From assembly GCF_028867705.1 (NCBI RefSeq), contig NZ_CP066171.1:744001-808000 (forward strand): DNA of 64,000 nucleotides, written 5' to 3'. Position numbers and translations under genes: made by a program. The stretch comes from Thermoleophilum album. GTDB taxonomy: Bacteria > Actinomycetota > Thermoleophilia > Solirubrobacterales > Thermoleophilaceae. Under the pieces are notes generated by a model. That model was given only the letters and a program-made list of their open reading frames with translations. It searched no databases and was not told where the DNA came from. Below, piece after piece: positions 2,426-53,688 of this stretch (within the stretch, counting starts at the first letter, position 1; each line of letters opens with the position of its first letter).

Positions 2426-4426
2426 ATGGGCCTGGCCAGGAGGGGGGAGGTCCTGTGGGAGCCCGACCGCGCGCTACGCGAGCGGACGGCGCTCGTGCGC
2501 TTCGAGCGTTTCATCGCCGAGCGGCACGGCCTCGAGTTCGGTGGCGACTACCACGCGCTCTGGCGGTGGTCGGTCGAGGCGCTCGAGGATTTTTGGCAAG
2601 CGATCTGGGACTTCTTCGCGGTCCATGCCACCACGCCACCGTCAGCGGTGCTGGCCGAGCGCAAGATGCCCGGAGCGTGCTGGTTCCCAGGCGCGCGCCT
2701 GAACTACGCCGACCACGTGTTTCGCGCCTGGGAAGGGCGTGAAACAGCGACAGCGCTGCACGCCTACTCGGAGACCCGGCCGCCGGCGACAGTGACTTGG
2801 GGCGAGCTGCGGGCGCTGGTGGCGCGGATCCGTGCCGGTCTGAGAGCGGCGGGCGTCGGTCCGGGCGACCGCGTCTGCGCGTACATGCCGAACGTACCCG
2901 AGACCGTGGCGGCGTTCCTCGCCACCGCGAGCCTCGGTGCAGTGTGGTCGAGCGCAGCGCCCGAGTTCGGCGTGCGCGCCGTGCTCGATCGCTTCGCTCA
3001 GATCGAGCCCAAGGTGCTGTTGGCGATCGATGGATACCGCTACGGGGGCCGCGACTTCGACCGTCTCGACGCCGTGCGCGCGCTCGCCGAAAACTTGCCG
3101 ACGCTCGGTGCCGTGTACGTCCTCGGCTATTTGCGAGGCGAACCACGCATCGCCGACATCCCGCGCGCTCGCCGCTGGGACGAGCTCGTCGCGGTCGAGG
3201 AACCGCTCGCCTGCGAGGCAGTGGCCTTCGATCACCCGCTGTGGGTGCTCTACTCGTCGGGCACGACCGGCCTGCCCAAAGCGATCGTGCACGGCCACGG
3301 CGGCATCCTCCTCGAGCATCTCAAGAAGATGCACCTGCACACCGACCTCCGGCCGGGCGACCGCTTTTTCTGGTTCACGACGACCGGCTGGATGATGTGG
3401 AACTTCCTGGTGTCGGGGCTCCTCGCCGGCAGCGAGCTCGTCCTCTACGACGGCAACCCCGCCTACCCCGACACGCTCGCCCTGTGGCGTCTCGCCGACG
3501 AGGTCGGCATCACCTGCTTCGGGACGAGCGCCGCCTTCATCCACGCCTGCATGAAGGCGGGCGCCAAGCCCGGGCGTGAGCTGTCGCTCGCCGCGCTTCG
3601 GAGCGTCGGATCGACAGGGTCGCCGCTGTCGCCGGAAGGGTTCGTGTGGGTGTACGAGGAGGTCAAGCGCGACCTCTGGTTGTTCTCGACTAGCGGCGGT
3701 ACCGACGTGTGCAGCGCCTTCGTTGGGGGTGTGCCGACGCTGCCCGTGTGGTGCGGGGAGCTGCAGGCGCGCGCCCTGGGGGCCAAGGTCGAAGCGTTCG
3801 ACGAGCAGGGGCGCAGCGTGGTCGGGCAGGTGGGCGAGCTGGTGATCACCGAGCCGATGCCCTCGATGCCCGTCTGTTTCTGGAACGACCCCGACGGCTC
3901 GCGCTACCGCCAGAGCTACTTCGACGTCTACCCGGGCGTGTGGCGGCACGGCGACTGGATCGAGATCACGCCGCGCGGCAGCGCCGTCATCTACGGACGC
4001 TCTGACGCCACGATCAACCGGCAGGGCGTGCGGATGGGGACGAGCGAGATCTACCGAGCTGTGCTCGCCGTCGACGAGGTCGAGGACGCGCTCGTCGTCG
4101 ACGTTCCGCGGGGCGACGGGGAATCTTGGATGCCGCTGTTCGTCGTTCTTCGCGACGGAGTCGAACTGGACGACGAGCTGCAGGCGCGTATCCGTAAGCG
4201 CGTGCGCGAAGACTGCTCGCCGCGGCACGTTCCCGATGCCATCTACCAGGTAGAGGCGATCCCGCGCACGCTGTCGGGCAAGACGCTCGAGGTGCCGGTC
4301 AAACGGATCCTGATGGGCACGCCGCCGGAGCGTGCCGCAAGCAGGGAATCGCTGAGCGACCCCGAGGCCTTCGATCGTTTCGTCGCCTTCCTCGAGACCT
4401 TGCCCGCAGTGCAGAACGCGCGTTAG
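2426..4426 (+). CDS. aacS: Acetoacetyl-CoA synthetase
   Basis: An adenylate-forming ligase of about 666 residues, the usual length for acetoacetyl-CoA synthetase. It activates acetoacetate to acetoacetyl-CoA at the cost of ATP. The P-loop-like AMP-binding motif YSSGTTGLPKAIVHGHGG lies near residue 275. The conserved TTTGWMMWNFLVSGLL and STSGGTDVCSAFVGG segments follow. The C-terminal hinge and catalytic lysine region are GRSDATINRQGVRMGTSEIY and PRTLSGKTLEVPVK. The frame is open further upstream, but homology-like sequence starts at the ATG at 2426 (MGLARRGEVLWEP). The gene follows the carboxylase by about 130 bases in the same direction. Together they could recover acetoacetate made by HMG-CoA cleavage. 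Confidence 0.93.
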   Translation: MGLARRGEVLWEPDRALRERTALVRFERFIAERHGLEFGGDYHALWRWSVEALEDFWQAIWDFFAVHATTPPSAVLAERKMPGACWFPGARLNYADHVFRAWEGRETATALHAYSETRPPATVTWGELRALVARIRAGLRAAGVGPGDRVCAYMPNVPETVAAFLATASLGAVWSSAAPEFGVRAVLDRFAQIEPKVLLAIDGYRYGGRDFDRLDAVRALAENLPTLGAVYVLGYLRGEPRIADIPRARRWDELVAVEEPLACEAVAFDHPLWVLYSSGTTGLPKAIVHGHGGILLEHLKKMHLHTDLRPGDRFFWFTTTGWMMWNFLVSGLLAGSELVLYDGNPAYPDTLALWRLADEVGITCFGTSAAFIHACMKAGAKPGRELSLAALRSVGSTGSPLSPEGFVWVYEEVKRDLWLFSTSGGTDVCSAFVGGVPTLPVWCGELQARALGAKVEAFDEQGRSVVGQVGELVITEPMPSMPVCFWNDPDGSRYRQSYFDVYPGVWRHGDWIEITPRGSAVIYGRSDATINRQGVRMGTSEIYRAVLAVDEVEDALVVDVPRGDGESWMPLFVVLRDGVELDDELQARIRKRVREDCSPRHVPDAIYQVEAIPRTLSGKTLEVPVKRILMGTPPERAASRESLSDPEAFDRFVAFLETLPAVQNAR

Positions 4427-4557
4427 GTTCAGCTCGAGCCGTTCGCGCCGGCTGCTGCGGCTCCGTTTTGCCGCCTGCTATCGGCGCCGCGCCGGCCGCA
4501 CGAGCGGGAAGAGCGTCCGCTGACGAGCTGTCGGCGGATTTTCCCGAAGGAGGAGTC

Positions 4558-5100
4558 ATGCAGGCAGAGTTGGGGCGCGTTACCCCAGCCGTGAAGATCG
4601 CGGCAGCTGGCGCTGTCGTGCTCGTCGTGTCCTTGTTCCTGCCGTGGTACGGGATAACTCTCGAGGGGCCTCTCGGCAGTAGCTTGGGCGGGCTCGACAC
4701 GACCGCGAGCGGGTGGGAGGCGCTCGAGCTGATCGACGTCCTTCTTTTCCTCGCGGCGCTGGTCGTGATCGCCGTAGCTGCAGCACAGGCGACCGGACGC
4801 GAGCTGCCCGTGCCCAGCGGCCGCGTTGTCGCCGGCGCCGCACTGCTAGCGCTGGCTCTCGTGCTCTACCGCCTGATCGATTCGCCGGGCCCGAGCGTGC
4901 CAGCGTTCCTCGAAGCAGCGGGAATCGATATCGGTCGCCGCTTCGGGGTATTCGTCGCTCTAGCGGCGGCGGTAGCGATGGCCTACGGCGGAGTGCGGGC
5001 GGCCGCCGGCGAGGCACCGCACGCTGCAGGCTCCGTCCCGCCCGTTCCTGGAGAGCCCTCGCGCTCGGAGGGCGAACAGGCGACTCCTTCGGCGCCGTAG
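4558..5100 (+). CDS. Small four-helix membrane protein of unknown function
   Basis: A 180-residue protein chosen to start at the ATG at 4558, because GAAGGAGGAG lies directly upstream. Four hydrophobic stretches are visible: about residues 13-35 (AAGAVVLVVSLFLPWYG), 57-77, 90-107 and 130-150. The first helix ends in FLPWYGITLEG, a pattern common in small actinobacterial membrane proteins. The C-terminus is a hydrophilic tail rich in Pro, Ser and Glu. No catalytic motif is seen and I do not recognise the family. It stands alone between aacS and a tRNA-Leu gene on the other strand. Confidence 0.75.
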   Translation: MQAELGRVTPAVKIAAAGAVVLVVSLFLPWYGITLEGPLGSSLGGLDTTASGWEALELIDVLLFLAALVVIAVAAAQATGRELPVPSGRVVAGAALLALALVLYRLIDSPGPSVPAFLEAAGIDIGRRFGVFVALAAAVAMAYGGVRAAAGEAPHAAGSVPPVPGEPSRSEGEQATPSAP

Positions 5101-7494: not shown

Positions 7495-7565
7495 GCGGGC
7501 GTGGTGTAGTGGCTGCACAGGAGCCTTCCAAGCTCCTAGGGCGGGTTCGAATCCCGTCGCCCGCT
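7495..7565 (+). tRNA. tRNA-Gly (TCC)
   Basis: A 71-nucleotide tRNA with acceptor stem GCGGGCG/CGCCCGC and discriminator T. The anticodon loop CTTCCAA gives TCC, and the T-arm is CGGGTTCGAATCCCG. tRNA-Pro begins three bases later, so the two are surely cotranscribed. Confidence 0.95.
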
Positions 7566-7567
7566 CC

Positions 7568-7641
7568 CGGGGCGTGGCGCAGCCTGGTAGCGCGTTCGGC
7601 TGGGGGCCGAAAGGTCGCCGGTTCAAATCCGGCCGCCCCGA
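7568..7641 (+). tRNA. tRNA-Pro (GGG)
   Basis: A 74-nucleotide tRNA with acceptor stem CGGGGCG/CGCCCCG and discriminator A. The anticodon loop CTGGGGG gives GGG, and the T-arm is CCGGTTCAAATCCGG. It forms a tandem pair with tRNA-Gly, two bases apart. Confidence 0.95.
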
Positions 7642-7743
7642 CTTCGCTCCGCAGTTGCGGCGAGGCACGGCGGCGCGCTGCGCTTGTGGCTGCTCGAGGC
7701 GGAGCGCTGGCCAGCGCCCGCTGGCGGCCGGCGAGGTCGAGCG

Positions 7744-8841
7744 ATGTTCGCGGGGAAATTCACGGCGCCCCCTAGGCGCACAAGACGACGGCCGCGGCTC
7801 TCGCCGATCGCCGCGACGCCGGGCTACGAGGAGCCCGAGATGGCGCGGCGGATCGCCAGCCTGATGCTTTTGGCCGGCGCGGTCACGGTGCTTTTGATCC
7901 TCCAAGCGCCGGACGTCGACCCGAGCGACCACGACGGCTTCCGTGTGATCGCGATCCTGGCTGCGCTCGGAGCGGCAGTGATCTGGTTCGGGCGTCTCGA
8001 GGGGCTCGCGGCGATTCTCGTCGGCGTCGTTTACGGCATCGGTCTTGTCAGCGCCGCCGTCTACGTCGCGAAACCGATCTCCGGGACCTCCTCCTTCTAT
8101 CTGTGGCCGCTGCTTTTCGGCGCCTACTTCTTGCGCTGGCGCTGGGTGGTCGCCATCGTCGCGCTCGCCTGGGCGAGCTTCGCGGGCGCGCTGGCGCTGC
8201 GTCCGGACATCGAGATGCGCGCAATTCTCTTCGTCGACACCGTCGTGACGGTGTCGGTAGCGGTCGCCGTGGTGGTGTACCTGCGCGAGCGGGTGGCCGA
8301 GCTCGTCGGGCACCTCCGCCGCAGCGCGATCACCGATCCGCTCACCGGGCTCGTCAACCGGCGCGGCTTCGAGGAGGCGCTGGAACGCGAGTTGGCGCGT
8401 GCCCAGCGCAGCGGTGCCCCGGTGGCGTTGGTCGTGTTCGATCTCGATCACTTCAAGCAGCTCAACGACACCCTCGGCCACGCCGCCGGCGACCGTGCGC
8501 TCGTGCAGTTCGCTCGCCTTTTGCGGCGCAGCGCGCGACGCGGCGACGTGCTCGCGCGGATCGGCGGTGAGGAGTTCGCGGCCGTTCTCTACGACGCTGA
8601 CGCCAACGACGCCCTGACCTTCGCCGAGCGCGTCGTCGCGCGCCAGCGCCAACTCGATCGCGAGACGCCGCTGACGGTGAGCGCGGGCGTGGCGGTCGGT
8701 CGCAGCCCCTATCCCACGCGCGACGAGATTTTCGACGCTGCCGATCGTGCCCTGTACGCGGCGAAGCGGGCGGGCCGGGCGCGGGCGCGGCTGGGCGAGG
8801 TACCCGCGAGAGCGACAGTCGCCACCAGCGGACCGGCCTGA
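7744..8841 (+). CDS. Membrane-bound diguanylate cyclase (GGDEF)
   Basis: A 365-residue protein that should make c-di-GMP from two GTP. The N-terminal half has about five or six membrane helices (MLLAGAVTVLLILQ, AILVGVVYGIGLVSAAVYV, VTVSVAVAVVVYL and others). A C-terminal GGDEF domain follows. DPLTGLVNRRGFE opens it, FDLDHFKQLND holds the metal site, and the active-site loop is GGEEF at about residues 274-278. An inhibitory I-site, RRGD, sits five residues before it (265-268), so product feedback is expected. The ATG at 7744 is preferred over a GTG at 7684. It lies just after the tRNA pair. It may supply c-di-GMP sensed by the MshEN-like protein encoded at 49.3-51.2 kb; that link is inference. 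Confidence 0.92.
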   Translation: MFAGKFTAPPRRTRRRPRLSPIAATPGYEEPEMARRIASLMLLAGAVTVLLILQAPDVDPSDHDGFRVIAILAALGAAVIWFGRLEGLAAILVGVVYGIGLVSAAVYVAKPISGTSSFYLWPLLFGAYFLRWRWVVAIVALAWASFAGALALRPDIEMRAILFVDTVVTVSVAVAVVVYLRERVAELVGHLRRSAITDPLTGLVNRRGFEEALERELARAQRSGAPVALVVFDLDHFKQLNDTLGHAAGDRALVQFARLLRRSARRGDVLARIGGEEFAAVLYDADANDALTFAERVVARQRQLDRETPLTVSAGVAVGRSPYPTRDEIFDAADRALYAAKRAGRARARLGEVPARATVATSGPA

Positions 8842-46751: not shown

Positions 46752-47638
46752 GTCCGCGCGCGGCGACCGTAGCGGCACGCACCCTCGTCGGCGAAGAGGA
46801 GCTGCCACCTCCGCAGGTTGCCGCGGCTGGGCGTGCTGCGCGCCCGCGGCCGAGCGCCGCGCGCCCGCGGACGAGCGCCACGCGCCCCCGGCCGGCTGCC
46901 CCCCGCTCACGGCCGGCCGCTGCGCCGCGGACGGCGCAGAAGACGCGACCGGCCAAGCGCCGCCCGCCGGCGCCGAGCGCGCGGCGGCGCCAGCAGAAGG
47001 CGCAGATCGGGGTACTGGCGCCGCCCGAGCCAGTCCGCCGGCCCACGGCGACGTTTGCACTGCCCGAGCGCGCCGTCGACCGCTTGCTGCGCACGCGCCT
47101 TTGGATCGGCACGATCGCGCTGCTTCTGGTCGGCATCGTCTTCCTCAACGTCGACCTTCTGCAGGTGAGCCGCCAGCTCGCCGCAGTCGCCGACCGCTCC
47201 GCCCAGGTGGAGGCCGACAACGCCCGCTTGCGTCGGGCGCTCGCGCGCCTCGACTCGCCCGACCGCATCCAGCGGCTTGCGAGCGAGCGCGGGTTCGTTT
47301 TGCCCGCGCCGGACGCCGTCCGCTATCTGCGACCCGACCCCGGCCGCGACGCGCTCCTGGCCGCCCGCAGGCTCGCGCAGCGCGCCACAGCGGGCACCGC
47401 GGGCACGGCGGCCTCGGCGGTCTCAGCGGTCTCGGCGGCTTCGGGCGCCGCTACCACGACCGCCACGCCCGCGCCGGGTGCCGCTGGCGGCGGTGCCCTG
47501 TCCGGCTCCTCGAGCGCCGGCGCCGCGACGGGCGGCCCGTCGGCTAGCGGAGCGACCGGCTCGTCCGCTCTCGGCACCGCCGGCGAGCAGGCCGCGGGTG
47601 GCGAGGGCGTGGTGGATAGTGCCGATGGGACACCGTAG
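46748..47638 (+). CDS. ftsL: FtsL-like division protein with long disordered tails
   Basis: A 296-residue single-pass protein in the position of ftsL. About 115 cytoplasmic residues rich in Arg, Pro and Ala precede one membrane helix (LWIGTIALLLVGIVFLNVDLL). A leucine-zipper-like stretch follows (VSRQLAAVADRSAQVEADNARLRRALARL) and then RIQRLASERGFVLP, typical of FtsL/DivIC. The last 90 residues are low-complexity Ala/Gly/Ser/Thr. FtsL joins FtsB and FtsQ to switch on septal wall synthesis. Both tails are longer than usual. It overlaps ftsI by 14 bases. Classed by position and topology more than by sequence. Confidence 0.75.
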   Translation: MSPRAATVAARTLVGEEELPPPQVAAAGRAARPRPSAARPRTSATRPRPAAPRSRPAAAPRTAQKTRPAKRRPPAPSARRRQQKAQIGVLAPPEPVRRPTATFALPERAVDRLLRTRLWIGTIALLLVGIVFLNVDLLQVSRQLAAVADRSAQVEADNARLRRALARLDSPDRIQRLASERGFVLPAPDAVRYLRPDPGRDALLAARRLAQRATAGTAGTAASAVSAVSAASGAATTTATPAPGAAGGGALSGSSSAGAATGGPSASGATGSSALGTAGEQAAGGEGVVDSADGTP

Positions 47639-49316
47639 GACGGGACGCAGGGTGCGCCTGGGGGCGCACGCGACCGGCGTGATCGACCGGCGCGTAGGCC
47701 TCCTTTTCGCGGTCTTTCTCGGCCTCTTCTTGGCTCTGGCGGCGCGCGCCACCTGGCTCACGACCGTGCGCGCAGGGACGCTTCGCGAACAGGCCCGCAG
47801 CCAGCACGACAGCAAGGTGGTCGAGCCCGGTCTGCGCGGTCCGATCCTCGACCGCCGCGGGCGCCAGCTGGCCGTGTCCGAGGAGGCGGTGACGGTTTAC
47901 GCGAACCCATTCCTGATCGAACGCCCGGCCGCTACCGCGGCGAGGCTCGCACCGCTCGTCCGTCTGCCCGAGGAACGCATCCTGGCGCTGATCTCCGACC
48001 GCTCGCGCGGTTTCGTCTACATCCGGCGCAAGCTGCCGCCCGAGGTCGGCGAGCGTCTCCGCAAGCTCGCCCTAGAAGGGGTTGGGACGCTCGTCGAACC
48101 GCGCCGCGTGTATCCGGGGGGAGCGCTTGCGACGCAGGTGGTGGGCGCGGTCGGCACTGACGGTTACGGACTGTTCGGGCTCGAGCAAGCGGCAGACCGG
48201 CTGCTGCGCGGTCGCGACGGCGAGCGCCGCGTGGTGCGCGACGCGCTCGGACGCCCCTTGCGCACGATCACTGTGCGCCAGCCGCGCCCAGGCCGCCCGC
48301 TGCGGCTGACGATCGACGCTGTGCTGCAGCGCCACGTCGAGGGGGTGCTGAAGGCGACCGCCGAGCGCTACCGGGCGCGCGGTGCGAGCGCGGTGGTGGT
48401 CGACCCGCGCGACGGTGCCGTGCTGGCGCTCGCGAGCTGGCCGACCGCCGCGCCCGACAGAAGTCTCGAGCTCGGTCCCGACGTGCGCCGCAACCGTGCC
48501 GTCGAGGACGCGTACGAACCCGGCTCCACGTTCAAGCCGTTCACGGTCGCAGCAGCGCTCGCCGACAGGGTGATCTCGCCGCTCGCTAGCTTCGACCTGC
48601 CGCCGACGATCCGTGTCGCCGACCGGGTGATCGGCGAGGCGCACCCGCGCGGTTGGGAGCGCATGTCGGTGGCCGACATCCTTGCCCGGTCGTCGAACGT
48701 GGGAACCGTGACGATCGGGCTCGAGCTCGGCGCGCGGCGGTTCGCGCGCTGGGTCGATCGCTTCGGTTTCGGCCGGCCCACCGGGATCGGCTTGCCGGGA
48801 GAATCACCCGGGATCGTGCCGCGGCTGCGCGACTACTCGGGTTCCTCGATGGGAAACCTGCCGATCGGCCAGGGTCTCGCCGTCACGCCGCTGCAGCTCG
48901 TCGCCGCCTACACCGCGCTCGCCGACCACGGCGTTCTGCACGAGCCCTACCTGATCGCCGGTCAGCGCCGCCCCGGCAAGCGCGTTTTGCGCCGTAGCGT
49001 GGCCGACACCGTCGCGCGCATGCTCGAGGGGGTCGTGGGACCGAACGGTACCGGCGCCGAAGCGCAGATCCCGGGCTACCGGATCGCCGGCAAGACCGGC
49101 ACGTCGCAGAAGCCCGATCCGCTCACGGGCACCTACTCCAAGACTCGCTACGTGGCGTCGTTCGTGGGGTTCGCGCCGGTCGGCGACCCGCGGCTGCTCG
49201 TCCTCGTCGCGGTCGACGAGCCACAGGGCGAGATCTACGGCGGCGTCGTCGCGGCCCCCGCTTTCGAGCAGATCGTGTCCTTCGCCTTGCCCTACCTGGG
49301 CGTTCCGCCGTCGTAG
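47625..49316 (+). CDS. ftsI: Division-specific transpeptidase FtsI (PBP3)
   Basis: A 563-residue class B penicillin-binding protein that cross-links septal peptidoglycan. There is one N-terminal membrane helix (VGLLFAVFLGLFLALAARATW). The pedestal domain follows (GLRGPILDRRGRQLAVS). The transpeptidase domain has the catalytic Ser301 in EPGSTFKPF, the SSN motif in ARSSNVGTV and KTG in RIAGKTGTSQK. The ATG at 47625 lies inside the end of ftsL. No C-terminal PASTA domains are present. The next two genes run on the opposite strand. Confidence 0.95.
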   Translation: MGHRRTGRRVRLGAHATGVIDRRVGLLFAVFLGLFLALAARATWLTTVRAGTLREQARSQHDSKVVEPGLRGPILDRRGRQLAVSEEAVTVYANPFLIERPAATAARLAPLVRLPEERILALISDRSRGFVYIRRKLPPEVGERLRKLALEGVGTLVEPRRVYPGGALATQVVGAVGTDGYGLFGLEQAADRLLRGRDGERRVVRDALGRPLRTITVRQPRPGRPLRLTIDAVLQRHVEGVLKATAERYRARGASAVVVDPRDGAVLALASWPTAAPDRSLELGPDVRRNRAVEDAYEPGSTFKPFTVAAALADRVISPLASFDLPPTIRVADRVIGEAHPRGWERMSVADILARSSNVGTVTIGLELGARRFARWVDRFGFGRPTGIGLPGESPGIVPRLRDYSGSSMGNLPIGQGLAVTPLQLVAAYTALADHGVLHEPYLIAGQRRPGKRVLRRSVADTVARMLEGVVGPNGTGAEAQIPGYRIAGKTGTSQKPDPLTGTYSKTRYVASFVGFAPVGDPRLLVLVAVDEPQGEIYGGVVAAPAFEQIVSFALPYLGVPPS

Positions 49317-49334: not shown

Positions 49335-51158
49335 TCAGCGCCAGATCGTCTGATCGCTCGGGTCGCCGCTGGCCGATGCTGACGCGTCAGGGCGCGCGCT
49401 CGCCGGTGACGAGGCATCGTCGGCTGCCGATGCCGCAGCGGATGCGCTGCCGCGAGCGGCAGTGGGGGCACCCGGTGCGGCGGCCGTGGGACCGATCGGA
49501 GCCGCTTGGTCGGCGCCGGCGCCGTCGCCGGCCAGGTCGGGTAGACGCGCGAGCGCGTCGAGCACCGCCTGCAGCTCGGTGCCCGCCGCCCGCACGCGGT
49601 CGAGCAGCGACTCGAGCGCCTCGCGCCGTGCCCGCTCGGACGCCACGGTCGCTCGCAGATAGCGCTCGGTGCGAGCCTGGTGCTCGCGCTCGCGCTCGAA
49701 CTCCTCGCGCATCTTCGCGAGCGTCGCGCGTGCACGCTCGGCGCGACGGTCGGCCTCCTCGAGCTCGAGCAACCGCTTGCGCGCCTGCTCGAGCGCCCGC
49801 TCGGCGCCCAGCGCCCGACGGTCGGCTTCCTCGCGCGCGCGTTCGAGCTCGGCGCGGACCTGTTCGAGCTCCTCGTCGCGGCCCTCGCGCAGCTTCTCGA
49901 TCTCGCCACGCAGCCGCTCGTTCTCGGCCCGCGCCTGCTCGAGATCTGCGGTCAACGCCTCGAGCTGCTCAGCCGACGACTCGAGCTCGGAGATGCGCGC
50001 GCGGAGCTTCTCGATCTCGGCGTTCGCAGCCTCGGCTTCGCCGCGCGCCGCGCCGGCCTCCTCTCGCAGCCGGTCGCTCTCCTCGCGCAGCCTCTCGAGC
50101 TCGGCGTTCAGGCGGTTAGCCTCGGCGCTCTTGGTGTCGAGCTCGGCACGTGCGATCTCGAGCTCGCCCCGCGTGCGCTCGAGCTCTCCGCGCATCCGCT
50201 CTAGTTCGACGGTGAGCTCGCCACCCCGTGCCTCGAGCTCCGCTAGACGGTTGCGGTCGGCACCGGCGCGGCTGCTCTCCTCACGCAGCCGCTCGAGCTC
50301 GGCTGTCGCCTCCTCCACCTCGCTGCGTGCTTGCTCGAGCTCGCTGCGCGTCTGCTCCGCTTCGCTCCGTGCTTGCTCGGCTTCGTCGCGCGCCTGCTCG
50401 AGCTCCTCCTGCAGGCGCTCCAGTTCCGCACGTAGCTCGGCGAGCGCGGCGTCGTCGACAGCGCCACCCGGGGCCGCCGCAGCGGGCGGGGGCGGAGGCG
50501 ACGGAGCTCGTGGGGGCGTGTGGGCGCTGGCTTGATGCGCGCCCGCGTCGGGGCTTGCTGGGCGCGACCCGATCTGCGGCGCGAGCGTCGCCCGTGCGGC
50601 TTCGCGAGCTGCCTGGCGTTCCTCGTCAGTGGTGCGCGGCAGCCGCTCGATCAGCGCCTCGACGGCGCTGCGGGTGGCGACGGCGGGCCGCACCTCGAGC
50701 TTCGTCATCACCGCGATGTCATCGATCGCGAGCGTGTCGGCCGGGTCGGTCATCGCCACCACGAGCGTGCCGTCGGGATCGAACGCCACCGGCACGGCGT
50801 GGTAACGCAGCGCGGTTTGCGGGCTGATGAGGTTGGCGGCGGCAACGTCGACCTCGAACTCGTCGAGGTCGATGTAGTCGAGTCCGTAGCGCTCGCCGAT
50901 CGCGCGTGCCAGCTGCTCCTCGGTGATCGCTCCCTGCTCGAGCAGGATCTGCTGGAGCGTGCGCCCTGGGACACGGGCAGCCTCGACCGCCTGCTCGACC
51001 GTTTCACGGTCGGCGAACCCGAGCTCGACAATCACGTCGCTCAGGAACGCCTGCCGGCCGCCCGGTGCCGAGGGCGGATAGACGCCCTTGCGTGCTGCGC
51101 CAGCGCCGGCGGCTGCCTCCCCTGTCGCCGTGCGCTGCTCGGTCCCCACCGCGTTCAC
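49335..51158 (-). CDS. GspE-N/MshEN-like domain fused to a long coiled coil
   Basis: A 607-residue cytoplasmic protein. Residues about 38-175 match the N-terminal domain of type II secretion/type IV pilus ATPases. They read LSDVIVELGFADRETVEQAV, then LQQILLEQGAITEEQLARAI, then YHAVPVAFDPDGTLVVAMTDP. In MshE this type of domain binds c-di-GMP. No ATPase follows; instead come a Pro/Ala linker (to about 235), about 300 residues of almost unbroken coiled coil rich in Glu, Arg, Ala and Leu heptads, and an Ala/Ser-rich tail ending DQTIWR. It starts one base after the GAF-GGDEF gene's stop. Both sit against the direction of the dcw cluster. A polar or septal scaffold that responds to a nucleotide is a reasonable idea; unproven. 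Confidence 0.82.
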   Translation of the reverse strand: MNAVGTEQRTATGEAAAGAGAARKGVYPPSAPGGRQAFLSDVIVELGFADRETVEQAVEAARVPGRTLQQILLEQGAITEEQLARAIGERYGLDYIDLDEFEVDVAAANLISPQTALRYHAVPVAFDPDGTLVVAMTDPADTLAIDDIAVMTKLEVRPAVATRSAVEALIERLPRTTDEERQAAREAARATLAPQIGSRPASPDAGAHQASAHTPPRAPSPPPPPAAAAPGGAVDDAALAELRAELERLQEELEQARDEAEQARSEAEQTRSELEQARSEVEEATAELERLREESSRAGADRNRLAELEARGGELTVELERMRGELERTRGELEIARAELDTKSAEANRLNAELERLREESDRLREEAGAARGEAEAANAEIEKLRARISELESSAEQLEALTADLEQARAENERLRGEIEKLREGRDEELEQVRAELERAREEADRRALGAERALEQARKRLLELEEADRRAERARATLAKMREEFEREREHQARTERYLRATVASERARREALESLLDRVRAAGTELQAVLDALARLPDLAGDGAGADQAAPIGPTAAAPGAPTAARGSASAAASAADDASSPASARPDASASASGDPSDQTIWR

Positions 51159-51159
51159 C

Positions 51160-52116
51160 TCACGAAGCTAACTCAGCTTCCCGCTCGGCCGCAAGCGCCG
51201 CCGCGGTTTCTAGATCAGCGCGCGCCGCCTCGAGCACCGCGACCGGCTCCTCGATGCCCCCGAGCGGACTGAACCCGAACACGGGGTGGGGCACCTCGGG
51301 GCGCTCGCGCGCGACGTGCGCGATCCGCGAGCAGAGCCGCGACACGAACGCCTCGGCCCCCTCGCGTCCCTTGCAACCGACGAGGATCACGCCCATCAGC
51401 TCGTCGTCGAGACGTCCGGTGTGGTCGGTCTTGCGGGCCACCGCTTGCAGCGCCTCGGCTACGTCCTTGAGCATCAGCGTGGCCATCGCTTCGCCGTAGC
51501 GCTCTTCGATCTCGCTGCGGTTGGGCAGCTTCAGCACCACCATGTGCGACTCGACAGCGCCGCGCTTGCAGAGGCGCCATTCACGCTCGAGCGCCTCGAG
51601 GAAGCTCTGGCGGTTGGGCAGACCGGTGACGTGGTCGGTGCGGTCGCGGTCGCGCAGCTGCTCGCGTAAACGCCTGAGGTCGGCGCGCAGCTGCACCCCC
51701 TCCCACTCGGCGGCGAGGAGCCTGGCGCACACCGCCACGAGCGCCCAGTCCTCCTCGCGGTAGGCGTTCTCGTCGGTCGACAGTGCCCACAGCGCTCCGA
51801 GCGCGTCGCCGTTGCTGGCAAGGAGGGGGACGGCGAGCCAGCTGCGGATCGCCAGCGCGTCGAGCAGCTCGACATCGGGGTTCGGTGCCTCGCGCGGCAT
51901 CGGCAGCACGGTGCCGCGGGCGAGCGCCTCGCTGGTGGCGCCGCGGACGTCGAGGACCCGATAGACGCGCTCGTCCTCGTCGAAGCGACCTAGCGCGACG
52001 ACCCCCGCGGGCAGGGACTCCTCGAGCAGGTCCAGCGCCTGGCCGGCGGCTTCCGAGAAGCTCTGGTATGTGCGCTCGGCAAGGCGCGCGAGGACCGTCA
52101 CCGCGGCGGCGCTCAT
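51160..52116 (-). CDS. GAF domain plus degenerate GGDEF protein
   Basis: A 318-residue soluble protein. Residues about 15-155 form a GAF-type sensor domain (SFSEAAGQALDLLEESLPAG; LAVPLLASNGDALGALWAL). Residues about 165-300 form a GGDEF-type domain (DHVTGLPNRQSFLEALEREW). The active-site loop reads RLDDELMGVIL where GGDEF is expected, so it is unlikely to make c-di-GMP. It may bind a nucleotide or serve as a partner. The ATG at 52116 is divergent from murE, with about 108 bases between starts. It is the first gene of a two-gene operon with the coiled-coil protein, one base apart. Confidence 0.85.
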   Translation of the reverse strand: MSAAAVTVLARLAERTYQSFSEAAGQALDLLEESLPAGVVALGRFDEDERVYRVLDVRGATSEALARGTVLPMPREAPNPDVELLDALAIRSWLAVPLLASNGDALGALWALSTDENAYREEDWALVAVCARLLAAEWEGVQLRADLRRLREQLRDRDRTDHVTGLPNRQSFLEALEREWRLCKRGAVESHMVVLKLPNRSEIEERYGEAMATLMLKDVAEALQAVARKTDHTGRLDDELMGVILVGCKGREGAEAFVSRLCSRIAHVARERPEVPHPVFGFSPLGGIEEPVAVLEAARADLETAAALAAEREAELAS

Positions 52117-52224: not shown

Positions 52225-53688
52225 ATGGACCTCCGCCGGCTCGCAGAGGGGGTCGCCCGGGAGTTCCGCGGGGCCGGTGCCGAGACGGTCACGGTTTCCG
52301 CGCTCGCCTACGACTCCCGTCGCGTACGACCGGGAACGCTGTTCTTTTGCGTTCCGGGCATGACGACCGACGGCCATCGCTACGCAGGCGAGGCCGTCGC
52401 GAGGGGTGCGGTGGCGCTGGTTTGCGAGCGGCCCCTCGAACTGCCGGTGCCGCAGGTCGTCGTCGCCGACGCGCGCGCCGCGATGGCGGCGATCGCGGTC
52501 CGCTTCTACGGCGATCCCACCGCACGCCTGCGCGTCGTCGGGATCACCGGCACCAACGGCAAGACGACGACGGCTTTCCTGGTGCGCCACCTGCTCGAGA
52601 GCATGGGCGTGCGCTGCGGGCTGCTCGGCACTGTCGCGCAGATCGTCGGCGGCGAGGAGCGTCCGCCGGGGCGCACCACACCCGAGTCGCTCGATCTCCA
52701 AGCGACGTTCGCGGAGATGGTCGCCGCTGGCGACCGCGCCTGTGCGATCGAGGTGTCGTCGCACGCGCTCGAGCTCGGGCGGGTAGCGGGCACGCGTTTC
52801 GCCTGTCGCGTGTTCACGAACCTCTCCCAAGACCATCTCGACTTCCACGGCACGATGGAGCTCTACTTCGAGGCCAAGCGGCGGCTCTTCAGCGAGTTCG
52901 CGGGGGCGGCGGTTATCGGCGTCGATTGCGAGTGGGGGAGGCGCCTGGCGCGCGAGTTCCCGCACGCCGACACCTTCGCCGTGGAGCGCGATGCGACGCT
53001 GCGCGCGCGCGACGTCGAGTTCGACATCGACGGCGCCCGCTTCACGCTCGAAGCGCCCGAGGGGAGTTGGCGCTGCCGTCTGCCGCTGCCGGGCCGTTTC
53101 AACGTCGAGAACGCGCTCGCGGCATTGGGAGCGGTACGCGCTCTCGGTGGCAACCTCGCCCAGGCGGCCGCCGCCCTCGCCACCTTCGACCGCGTCCCCG
53201 GCCGCTTCGAGCGCATCGATGCGGGGCAGCCGTTCGCGGTCCTCGTCGACTACGCGCACACACCGGACTCGCTCGCGCGCGTGTTGGCGGCGGCGCGTCC
53301 GCTCTGCCGCGGACGCCTGTGGTGCGTCTTCGGCTGCGGGGGCGATCGCGACCGCGGCAAGCGGCCGCAGATGGGGCGCATCGCCGCCGAGCTCGCCGAC
53401 CGTGTGATCGTGACATCCGACAACCCGCGCAGCGAGGACCCGGAGGCGATCATCGACGAGATCGTCGCCGGTGTGAGCGGCCAAGCGCGGGCACGCCTGG
53501 AGCGCGAGAGCGATCGCCGCCGCGCGATCGAGCGTGCGATCGCCGCGGCCGAACCCGGCGATCTGGTGCTGATCGCGGGCAAGGGACACGAACAGGGACA
53601 GGAGTTCGCCGACGGGCGCGTCGAGCCGTTCGACGACCGCGAGGTCGCGCGCGAGGCGCTCGCGGCGCGGGCGGGGGCTGCCGCGTGA
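52225..53688 (+). CDS. murE: UDP-MurNAc-tripeptide synthetase MurE (meso-diaminopimelate type)
   Basis: A 487-residue Mur ligase that adds the third amino acid to the peptidoglycan stem. The ATP motif GITGTNGKTTT lies near residue 110. EVSSHALELGRV carries the carbamylated-lysine-linked region and FTNLSQDHLDFHG follows. The amino-acid pocket motif is DNPRSEDP near residue 400, the version that selects meso-diaminopimelate. The ATG at 52225 follows no strong ribosome site, and the frame stays open upstream by chance. The stop overlaps the murF start (GTGA). A promoter for this gene must lie between 52117 and 52224, since the upstream pair is on the other strand. Confidence 0.96.
   Translation: MDLRRLAEGVAREFRGAGAETVTVSALAYDSRRVRPGTLFFCVPGMTTDGHRYAGEAVARGAVALVCERPLELPVPQVVVADARAAMAAIAVRFYGDPTARLRVVGITGTNGKTTTAFLVRHLLESMGVRCGLLGTVAQIVGGEERPPGRTTPESLDLQATFAEMVAAGDRACAIEVSSHALELGRVAGTRFACRVFTNLSQDHLDFHGTMELYFEAKRRLFSEFAGAAVIGVDCEWGRRLAREFPHADTFAVERDATLRARDVEFDIDGARFTLEAPEGSWRCRLPLPGRFNVENALAALGAVRALGGNLAQAAAALATFDRVPGRFERIDAGQPFAVLVDYAHTPDSLARVLAAARPLCRGRLWCVFGCGGDRDRGKRPQMGRIAAELADRVIVTSDNPRSEDPEAIIDEIVAGVSGQARARLERESDRRRAIERAIAAAEPGDLVLIAGKGHEQGQEFADGRVEPFDDREVAREALAARAGAAA

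Follow-up and report, generated by a model that had tools for sequence, protein, structure and literature searches.

A degenerate GGDEF protein and a PilB-related coiled-coil protein form a conserved two-gene unit and a candidate c-di-GMP response module in Thermoleophilum album

Between ftsI and murE, inside the division and cell-wall (dcw) cluster of Thermoleophilum album, two genes run on the opposite strand, which raises the question of what these two proteins do and what, if anything, their place in the dcw cluster means. The stretch of DNA that was analyzed (the window) is 64,000 nt long and comprises positions 744,001-808,000 of a single-contig genome of 2.11 Mb; coordinates below are window positions, and those within the two genes refer to the minus strand. 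The translated open reading frame of gene 1 (P0001; 52116..51160, minus strand; 318 aa) contains a GAF domain and a catalytically dead GGDEF domain, and that of gene 2 (P0002; 51158..49335, minus strand; 607 aa) an MshEN domain and a coiled coil. The GTG start codon of gene 2 lies one base beyond the end of gene 1. On one side, the pair converges with ftsI (47277..49316, plus strand, as the longest open reading frame; the coding part likely begins at about 47598), and on the other side it diverges from the murE reading frame (52225..53688, plus strand), with 108 bp between the starts of gene 1 and murE. Thus, the antisense two-gene unit between ftsI and murE that had been described in an earlier note was verified in its coordinates, strand and one-base gap. 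The order and the strands of the ftsI and murE flanks are alike in G115, a second species of the same genus, and in HR41/G201. A scan of genome contigs returned HR41 (L004) as the sole near relative; this is apparently the same record as G201 (the contig number and the murE coordinates match), and it was counted once. Scans for promoters and terminators gave no match, a result of little weight in an actinobacterium. Elsewhere in the window, the diguanylate cyclase noted before at 7.7 kb is present at 7744-8841 on the plus strand, with the motif GGEEF, and secretion-type T2SSE and T2SSF genes are located at 42.0-44.1 kb.

The protein encoded by gene 1 has the architecture of a diguanylate cyclase with the catalytic positions gone. 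Its Pfam matches are GGDEF (60.3 bits, cut-off 23.8) and GAF (31.3 bits, cut-off 22.4), and no EAL, REC or PAS domain was found in it by Pfam. In the AlphaFold2 model (mean pLDDT 87), the GAF domain, which Pfam and the model place at about residues 20-137 (51706..52059), includes a helix (H20-34) and the strands E39-46, E51-59, E92-99 and E105-113; a 39-residue helix (residues 121-159) connects it to the GGDEF fold at about residues 155-310 (51187..51654). Superposition of the latter on 3ign, a GGDEF domain with c-di-GMP, yielded a VIA-align Z of 22.6 and an rmsd of 1.7 over 155 aligned residues, so that by Pfam as well as by VIA-align gene 1 has the GGDEF fold of active cyclases. However, where an active cyclase has GG(D/E)EF, gene 1 has DDELM (residues 237-241; 51394..51408). 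The loss of the loop had been recognized earlier, but the form given then, LDDEL, was one position off the register of the intact relatives in alignment A3. At the same loop in A3, the solo relatives have GGDEF, and the paired proteins have DDELM, DEELM, GEDVF or GEATV. Similarly, the D, N and D that the solo relatives carry at the metal- or guanine-binding positions 196, 204 and 213 are K, E and T in gene 1. Over the eight catalytic columns compared (196, 204, 213 and 237-241), the window protein keeps 0, the G153 protein 4 and the G172 protein 1, and none of the eight is kept across all three paired lineages. Among the relatives of gene 1, the GGDEF motif was lost only in those paired with the coiled-coil gene. 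These comparisons suggest that gene 1 descended from an active GAF-GGDEF diguanylate cyclase, and that a transition from enzyme to receptor can be seen within one order; this belongs to a broader reading, set out below, which as a whole we put forward tentatively.

Standalone relatives of gene 1 with an intact GGDEF motif are found at L149:6964-7959, L076:9449-10681, L077:9835-10947 and L154:6122-7294. Two loci retrieved for a match to the GAF part of gene 1, in two genomes, have a pair of neighboring genes in a common order (L152:3437-4069 and 4092-4673; L151:8123-8692 and 7521-8102), which by their sequences may be a response-regulator-like gene and a ClpP-like one.

Part of the domain was nevertheless retained. 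Gene 1 has an RxxD motif, R228 (51433..51435) and D231 (51424..51426), and a second I-site arginine, R260 (51337..51339), 32 residues after R228. All three positions are invariant in alignments A1 and A3, with 9 of 9 sequences having them, and their spacing is that of R363, D366 and R395 in PelD of B. cereus, each of which is required for binding and for biofilm formation; replacement of any one of them by alanine abolished detectable binding (PMC7112168). With the catalytic positions gone and the complete I-site triad kept, gene 1 is most likely a c-di-GMP receptor, with the I-site as the predicted binding site. Only 15 of the 46 GGDEF-domain columns that are invariant in five solo relatives are kept throughout the three paired lineages. 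The contrast between the triad (3/3 kept) and the catalytic columns (0/8) gave p = 0.006 in a one-sided Fisher test on a small set of columns, picked from knowledge of the family and drawn from only three independent paired lineages; for the triad considered alone, p is about 0.03. The RxxD motif is ancestral, being present in the solo cyclases, so that retention of the triad could partly be inertia. Degenerate GGDEF domains that bind no ligand are known from other proteins, and the dead domain of gene 1 might similarly serve for dimerization or protein binding only, in which case the GAF domain, recognizing a small ligand or a redox state, would be the sensor of the pair. Such a role would fit the selection that acts on the GAF domain (dN/dS 0.158), and the retention of the triad does rest on three lineages; yet the triad is kept in every one of them, whereas about two-thirds of the positions that are invariant in the solo relatives differ in one lineage or more, and we regard a ligand-free GGDEF domain as rather unlikely here.

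Turning to gene 2, the N-terminal MshEN domain (residues 38-178; 50625..51047) is of the PilB N-terminal-domain type according to AlphaFold2, Foldseek and phmmer. It belongs to the MshEN family (PF05157) with 71.3 bits against a cut-off of 23.1, the block was modeled with a pLDDT of mostly 96-98, and phmmer relates it to PilF/PilB. The top Foldseek match is 5htl_B, MshE with c-di-GMP (E 6.3e-11); the fold that had been proposed for this region is thus present in the model. A Pro/Ala-rich linker follows, seen in the translation at residues 179-236 (50451..50624), and then a heptad coiled coil (residues 237-530; 49569..50450), delimited by periodicity and dN/dS, in which proline is absent. Hydrophobic residues recur there with a period of exactly 3.50 and a power of 3.3, whereas none of 2000 shuffled sequences exceeded 1.05. 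The low-complexity C-terminal tail (residues 531-607; 49338..49568) stands out by dN/dS as fast-evolving. No Walker A motif exists anywhere in gene 2, in contrast to PilB/GspE ATPases, and no ATPase family is among the Pfam matches listed; a coil without an ATPase, as claimed before, is therefore what the protein has. Walker A is present in the PilB relatives compared, except in rows with a cut at a contig end or a broken frame.

Does the MshEN domain bind c-di-GMP, as had been suggested from its family? In MshE, binding involves two copies of RLGxx(L/V/I)(L/V/I)xxG...L...L..Q (PMC5013675). The corresponding 53-residue site of gene 2 (residues 38-90; 50889..51047) is degenerate, both in the alignment and by NF053729: its two motifs read FLS...V...V..A and TLQ...L...I..R, so that Arg, Gly and Gln have been replaced in each of the two copies, with the hydrophobic positions mostly kept. 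The model NF053729, which covers RLG...L...L..Q twice, scores 32.8 bits, below the curated cut-off of 38. Canonical c-di-GMP binding by this domain is thus unlikely, which speaks against the MshEN domain as the proposed nucleotide binder; the likelier candidate would be the I-site of the dead GGDEF domain, which the earlier note had missed. The MshEN-coil protein might instead be a receptor in a non-canonical mode, with gene 1 as a local helper. The intact fold and the mostly preserved hydrophobic positions would allow this, and the GSPII-B domain of PilF, which has no motif arginines, binds c-di-GMP at 6 nM (PMC11731258). However, although the motif Arg is replaceable in PilF, its extended consensus retains Gly and Gln (PMC11731258), and gene 2 is changed at both; moreover, PilB of X. 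citri and XpsE, with similar changes, are reported to be motif-less or non-binding (PMC8389850, PMC5013675). Together with the low NF053729 score, these points make a receptor role of the MshEN domain very improbable. In the order's PilB-type ATPases compared in alignment A4, the motif Arg, Gly and Gln positions are mostly missing as well; a minority keeps the motif in part, including one from the same genome as the window (L003) and L079, L084 and L072.

Both genes are under selection. Measured against G115, dN/dS is 0.123 for gene 1 overall (dead GGDEF domain 0.098, GAF domain 0.158) and 0.177 for gene 2 overall (MshEN domain 0.131, coil 0.097, linker 0.33 over residues 187-236); the neighboring genes give 0.144 (ftsI) and 0.22 (murE). 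The tail of gene 2 is the only part that drifts, with a dN/dS of 0.79 and 41% identity to G115. A pseudogene or a chance reading frame is ruled out by core-domain values of about 0.1 together with homologues in two families. In a tree of 63 MshEN domains, those of the MshEN-coil proteins form one clade (support 99/96) that falls within the order's MshEN domains of the PilB type, which shows a common origin with PilB domains; the exact placement is unsure because some branches are long. Likewise, among 28 GAF-GGDEF proteins the paired gene 1 proteins form a single clade (support 100/99), with the solo protein of G161 outside.

The question of whether the position in the dcw cluster is meaningful was addressed by the distribution of the two genes. 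Of the 232 genomes searched for the order, 6 encode MshEN-coil proteins (G000, G201, G115, G153, G172 and G161), which are separated from the PilB-type ATPases by a drop in bit score from 424 to 229. Among 396 sampled genomes of the phylum, the only protein of the coiled-coil type was that of the window itself. Other MshEN matches were rejected as members, nearly all of those compared carrying Walker A ATPases and the rest being truncated by a contig end or having a disrupted frame; in G163, the MshEN frame is split into two overlapping frames (L089:7936-8389), which might reflect a frameshift in a PilB gene or a fault of the assembly. Full-length relatives of gene 1 adjoin a gene of the gene 2 type in G000, G201, G115, G153 and G172, and G183 probably has the pair too, its contig ending within the gene and its neighbors being those seen in G153. 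The two genes are adjacent without overlap in G000, G201 and G115, and in G153 and G172 they share 4 bp; overlaps of this length are typical of translationally coupled pairs. The pair is thus co-located in three lineages of two families. Gene 1 relatives stand alone in G161 and in the f4 genomes; the f4 loci contain no MshEN gene, and the solo GGDEF genes there adjoin a gene that seems to resemble those of F420 biosynthesis.

Whether the pair stays in the dcw cluster received a divided answer: it does so within the genus (G000, G201 and G115) and in part in G161, but not elsewhere. In G161, of another genus, the coiled-coil gene alone lies antisense in the same ftsI-murE slot. In G153, of the same family, the pair is located away from the dcw cluster, with a PAC2-family gene on one side and a gene for a UvrD-type helicase on the other; in G172, of another family, it is flanked by a pyridine-nucleotide-disulphide oxidoreductase gene and, on the other side, past two small genes, by that of an AMP-binding enzyme. 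In 17 genomes of the family, ftsI and murE are directly adjacent. The dcw location is therefore striking but not general, and a general tie to the division cluster is not supported. Two independent arrivals in one gap are unlikely, and the dcw location therefore probably dates far back in the family and was often lost. In G161, the coiled-coil gene lies in the dcw cluster at L082:7954-8958, and an active-looking GAF-GGDEF relative is encoded on another contig (L149:6964-7959). To judge by the sequences, G161 may represent the arrangement that preceded the joining of the two genes, and because no dead partner lies beside its coiled-coil gene, gene 2 may work alone.

Two readings of the position have to be weighed. 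It may be incidental, that is, a place without functional meaning, a view that concerns location only and is compatible with a c-di-GMP module. Genomes of another genus carry unrelated genes at the ftsI-murE junction, namely a PD40 repeat protein in G121 (L107:3034-3885) and a pyridoxamine oxidase-like protein in G177 (L110:641-1327), and the gap thus seems to tolerate inserts in this family; mere chance is countered by the presence of the coiled-coil gene at this junction in a second genus and by the purifying selection on the pair. An incidental position is, in our view, a serious possibility, although short of probable. Alternatively, the place could be functional and the coiled-coil protein a division or polarity scaffold at the septum or the new pole, like proteins of the DivIVA type, with gene 1 tuning it. 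That the antisense slot is occupied by the pair in G000, G201 and G115 and by the coil gene alone in G161 would agree with such a role. Moreover, c-di-GMP enzymes are known at division sites: in E. coli there is YfiN (PMC4992967), and in M. xanthus DmxA, a protein that controls the placement of pili as well (PMC11255338). However, the pairs of G153 and G172 outside the dcw cluster and the 17 family genomes with ftsI next to murE speak against it, as does the lack of a division-protein domain among the Pfam matches listed for either protein. Those listed are 25 of 29, and DivIVA is not one of the 25. A division scaffold is an unlikely explanation, though, since DmxA unites the division site and pilus placement via c-di-GMP, not one that excludes a role in pili.

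The reading that we favor, still with considerable reserve, is that the two proteins together make up a c-di-GMP response module acting on type IV pili, with a PelD- or FimX-like receptor and a PilB-derived scaffold; we infer the binding of c-di-GMP, the contact between the two proteins and the pilus target. Gene 1 would bind c-di-GMP at its I-site and act as a receptor as PelD does, and its GAF domain and connecting helix would supply dimerization or a second input. The coil of gene 2 would provide dimerization and reach, and its MshEN domain, which points to possible partners of the PilB (type IV pilus) type rather than to the Tad pilus considered in the earlier note, would take the signal from gene 1 and engage the partners of PilB (PilM) or compete with PilB. 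As the outcome, the placement or the assembly of type IV pili would be gated by c-di-GMP. PilM, PilB-type ATPases and EAL proteins are encoded in all five carrier genomes tested, which says little because most members of the order have type IV pilus ATPases; PilM of the T. album genome lies near 1.209 Mb, and none of the neighborhoods examined has pilus genes beside the pair. A bolder version, in which the cyclase turned receptor, left with its product-inhibition site only, and a motor-less docking domain on a coiled-coil rod would be a new effector that positions the pilus machinery at the site of division or at the new pole, with the dcw cluster as the ancestral setting, we consider improbable. 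As to the nucleotide-responsive scaffold suggested in the earlier note, the conserved unit, the scaffold-like coil behind the MshEN domain and the kind of reading, which is the best one, were upheld, and the MshEN domain as the binder was not.

Such a module could matter in two respects. The PilB N-terminal domains compared in the order mostly lack the c-di-GMP residues of MshE, although GGDEF and EAL proteins are numerous in these genomes, and the pair is a candidate route by which c-di-GMP could reach motif-less PilB machines. In addition, it may represent a case of an enzyme that became a receptor and kept only the allosteric site, with the solo relatives as a natural comparison of before and after. 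A literature search found no paper on an MshEN coiled-coil fusion or on a dcw-linked c-di-GMP scaffold. The two-gene module is real, rare and conserved, and, while its kind (a degenerate GGDEF receptor and an MshEN adaptor) is known, the combination appears to be new.

Several known systems resemble parts of the pair. PelD of P. aeruginosa and B. cereus, which serves the Pel polysaccharide, likewise has a GAF domain followed by a degenerate GGDEF domain and an I-site with R-xx-D plus R at +32 (PMC7112168), and the PelD structure 4dmz is among the fold matches of gene 1. Unlike PelD, gene 1 has no N-terminal membrane region, for which there is no room because the GAF fold begins near residue 20 and the two domains fill the 318 aa; it lies outside any pel-like operon, with ftsI, murE and gene 2 as neighbors, and its partner is the MshEN coiled-coil protein. 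Gene 2 shares the fold and family membership with MshE, PilF and NfrB (PF05157, NF053729) but differs from them by a coiled coil in place of an ATPase or glycosyltransferase and by the loss of the c-di-GMP motif positions. DmxA is, like gene 1, a GAF-GGDEF protein, but it has cyclase activity, a second GAF domain and a membrane domain (PMC11255338), whereas gene 1 is catalytically dead and leaves no space for a membrane domain. The nearest working analogy is FimX and PilB of X. citri, where the N-terminal domain of PilB has no c-di-GMP motif and the signal arrives via FimX, which combines a degenerate GGDEF domain with a c-di-GMP-binding EAL domain (PMC8389850). There, as proposed here, a cyclase-inactive GGDEF protein is linked to a motif-less PilB-type N-terminal domain (PMC8389850); in contrast to FimX, gene 1 has no EAL, REC or PAS domain, its predicted c-di-GMP site is the GGDEF I-site instead of an EAL domain, and the PilB-type domain that it would contact is carried by a separate, motor-less coiled-coil protein.
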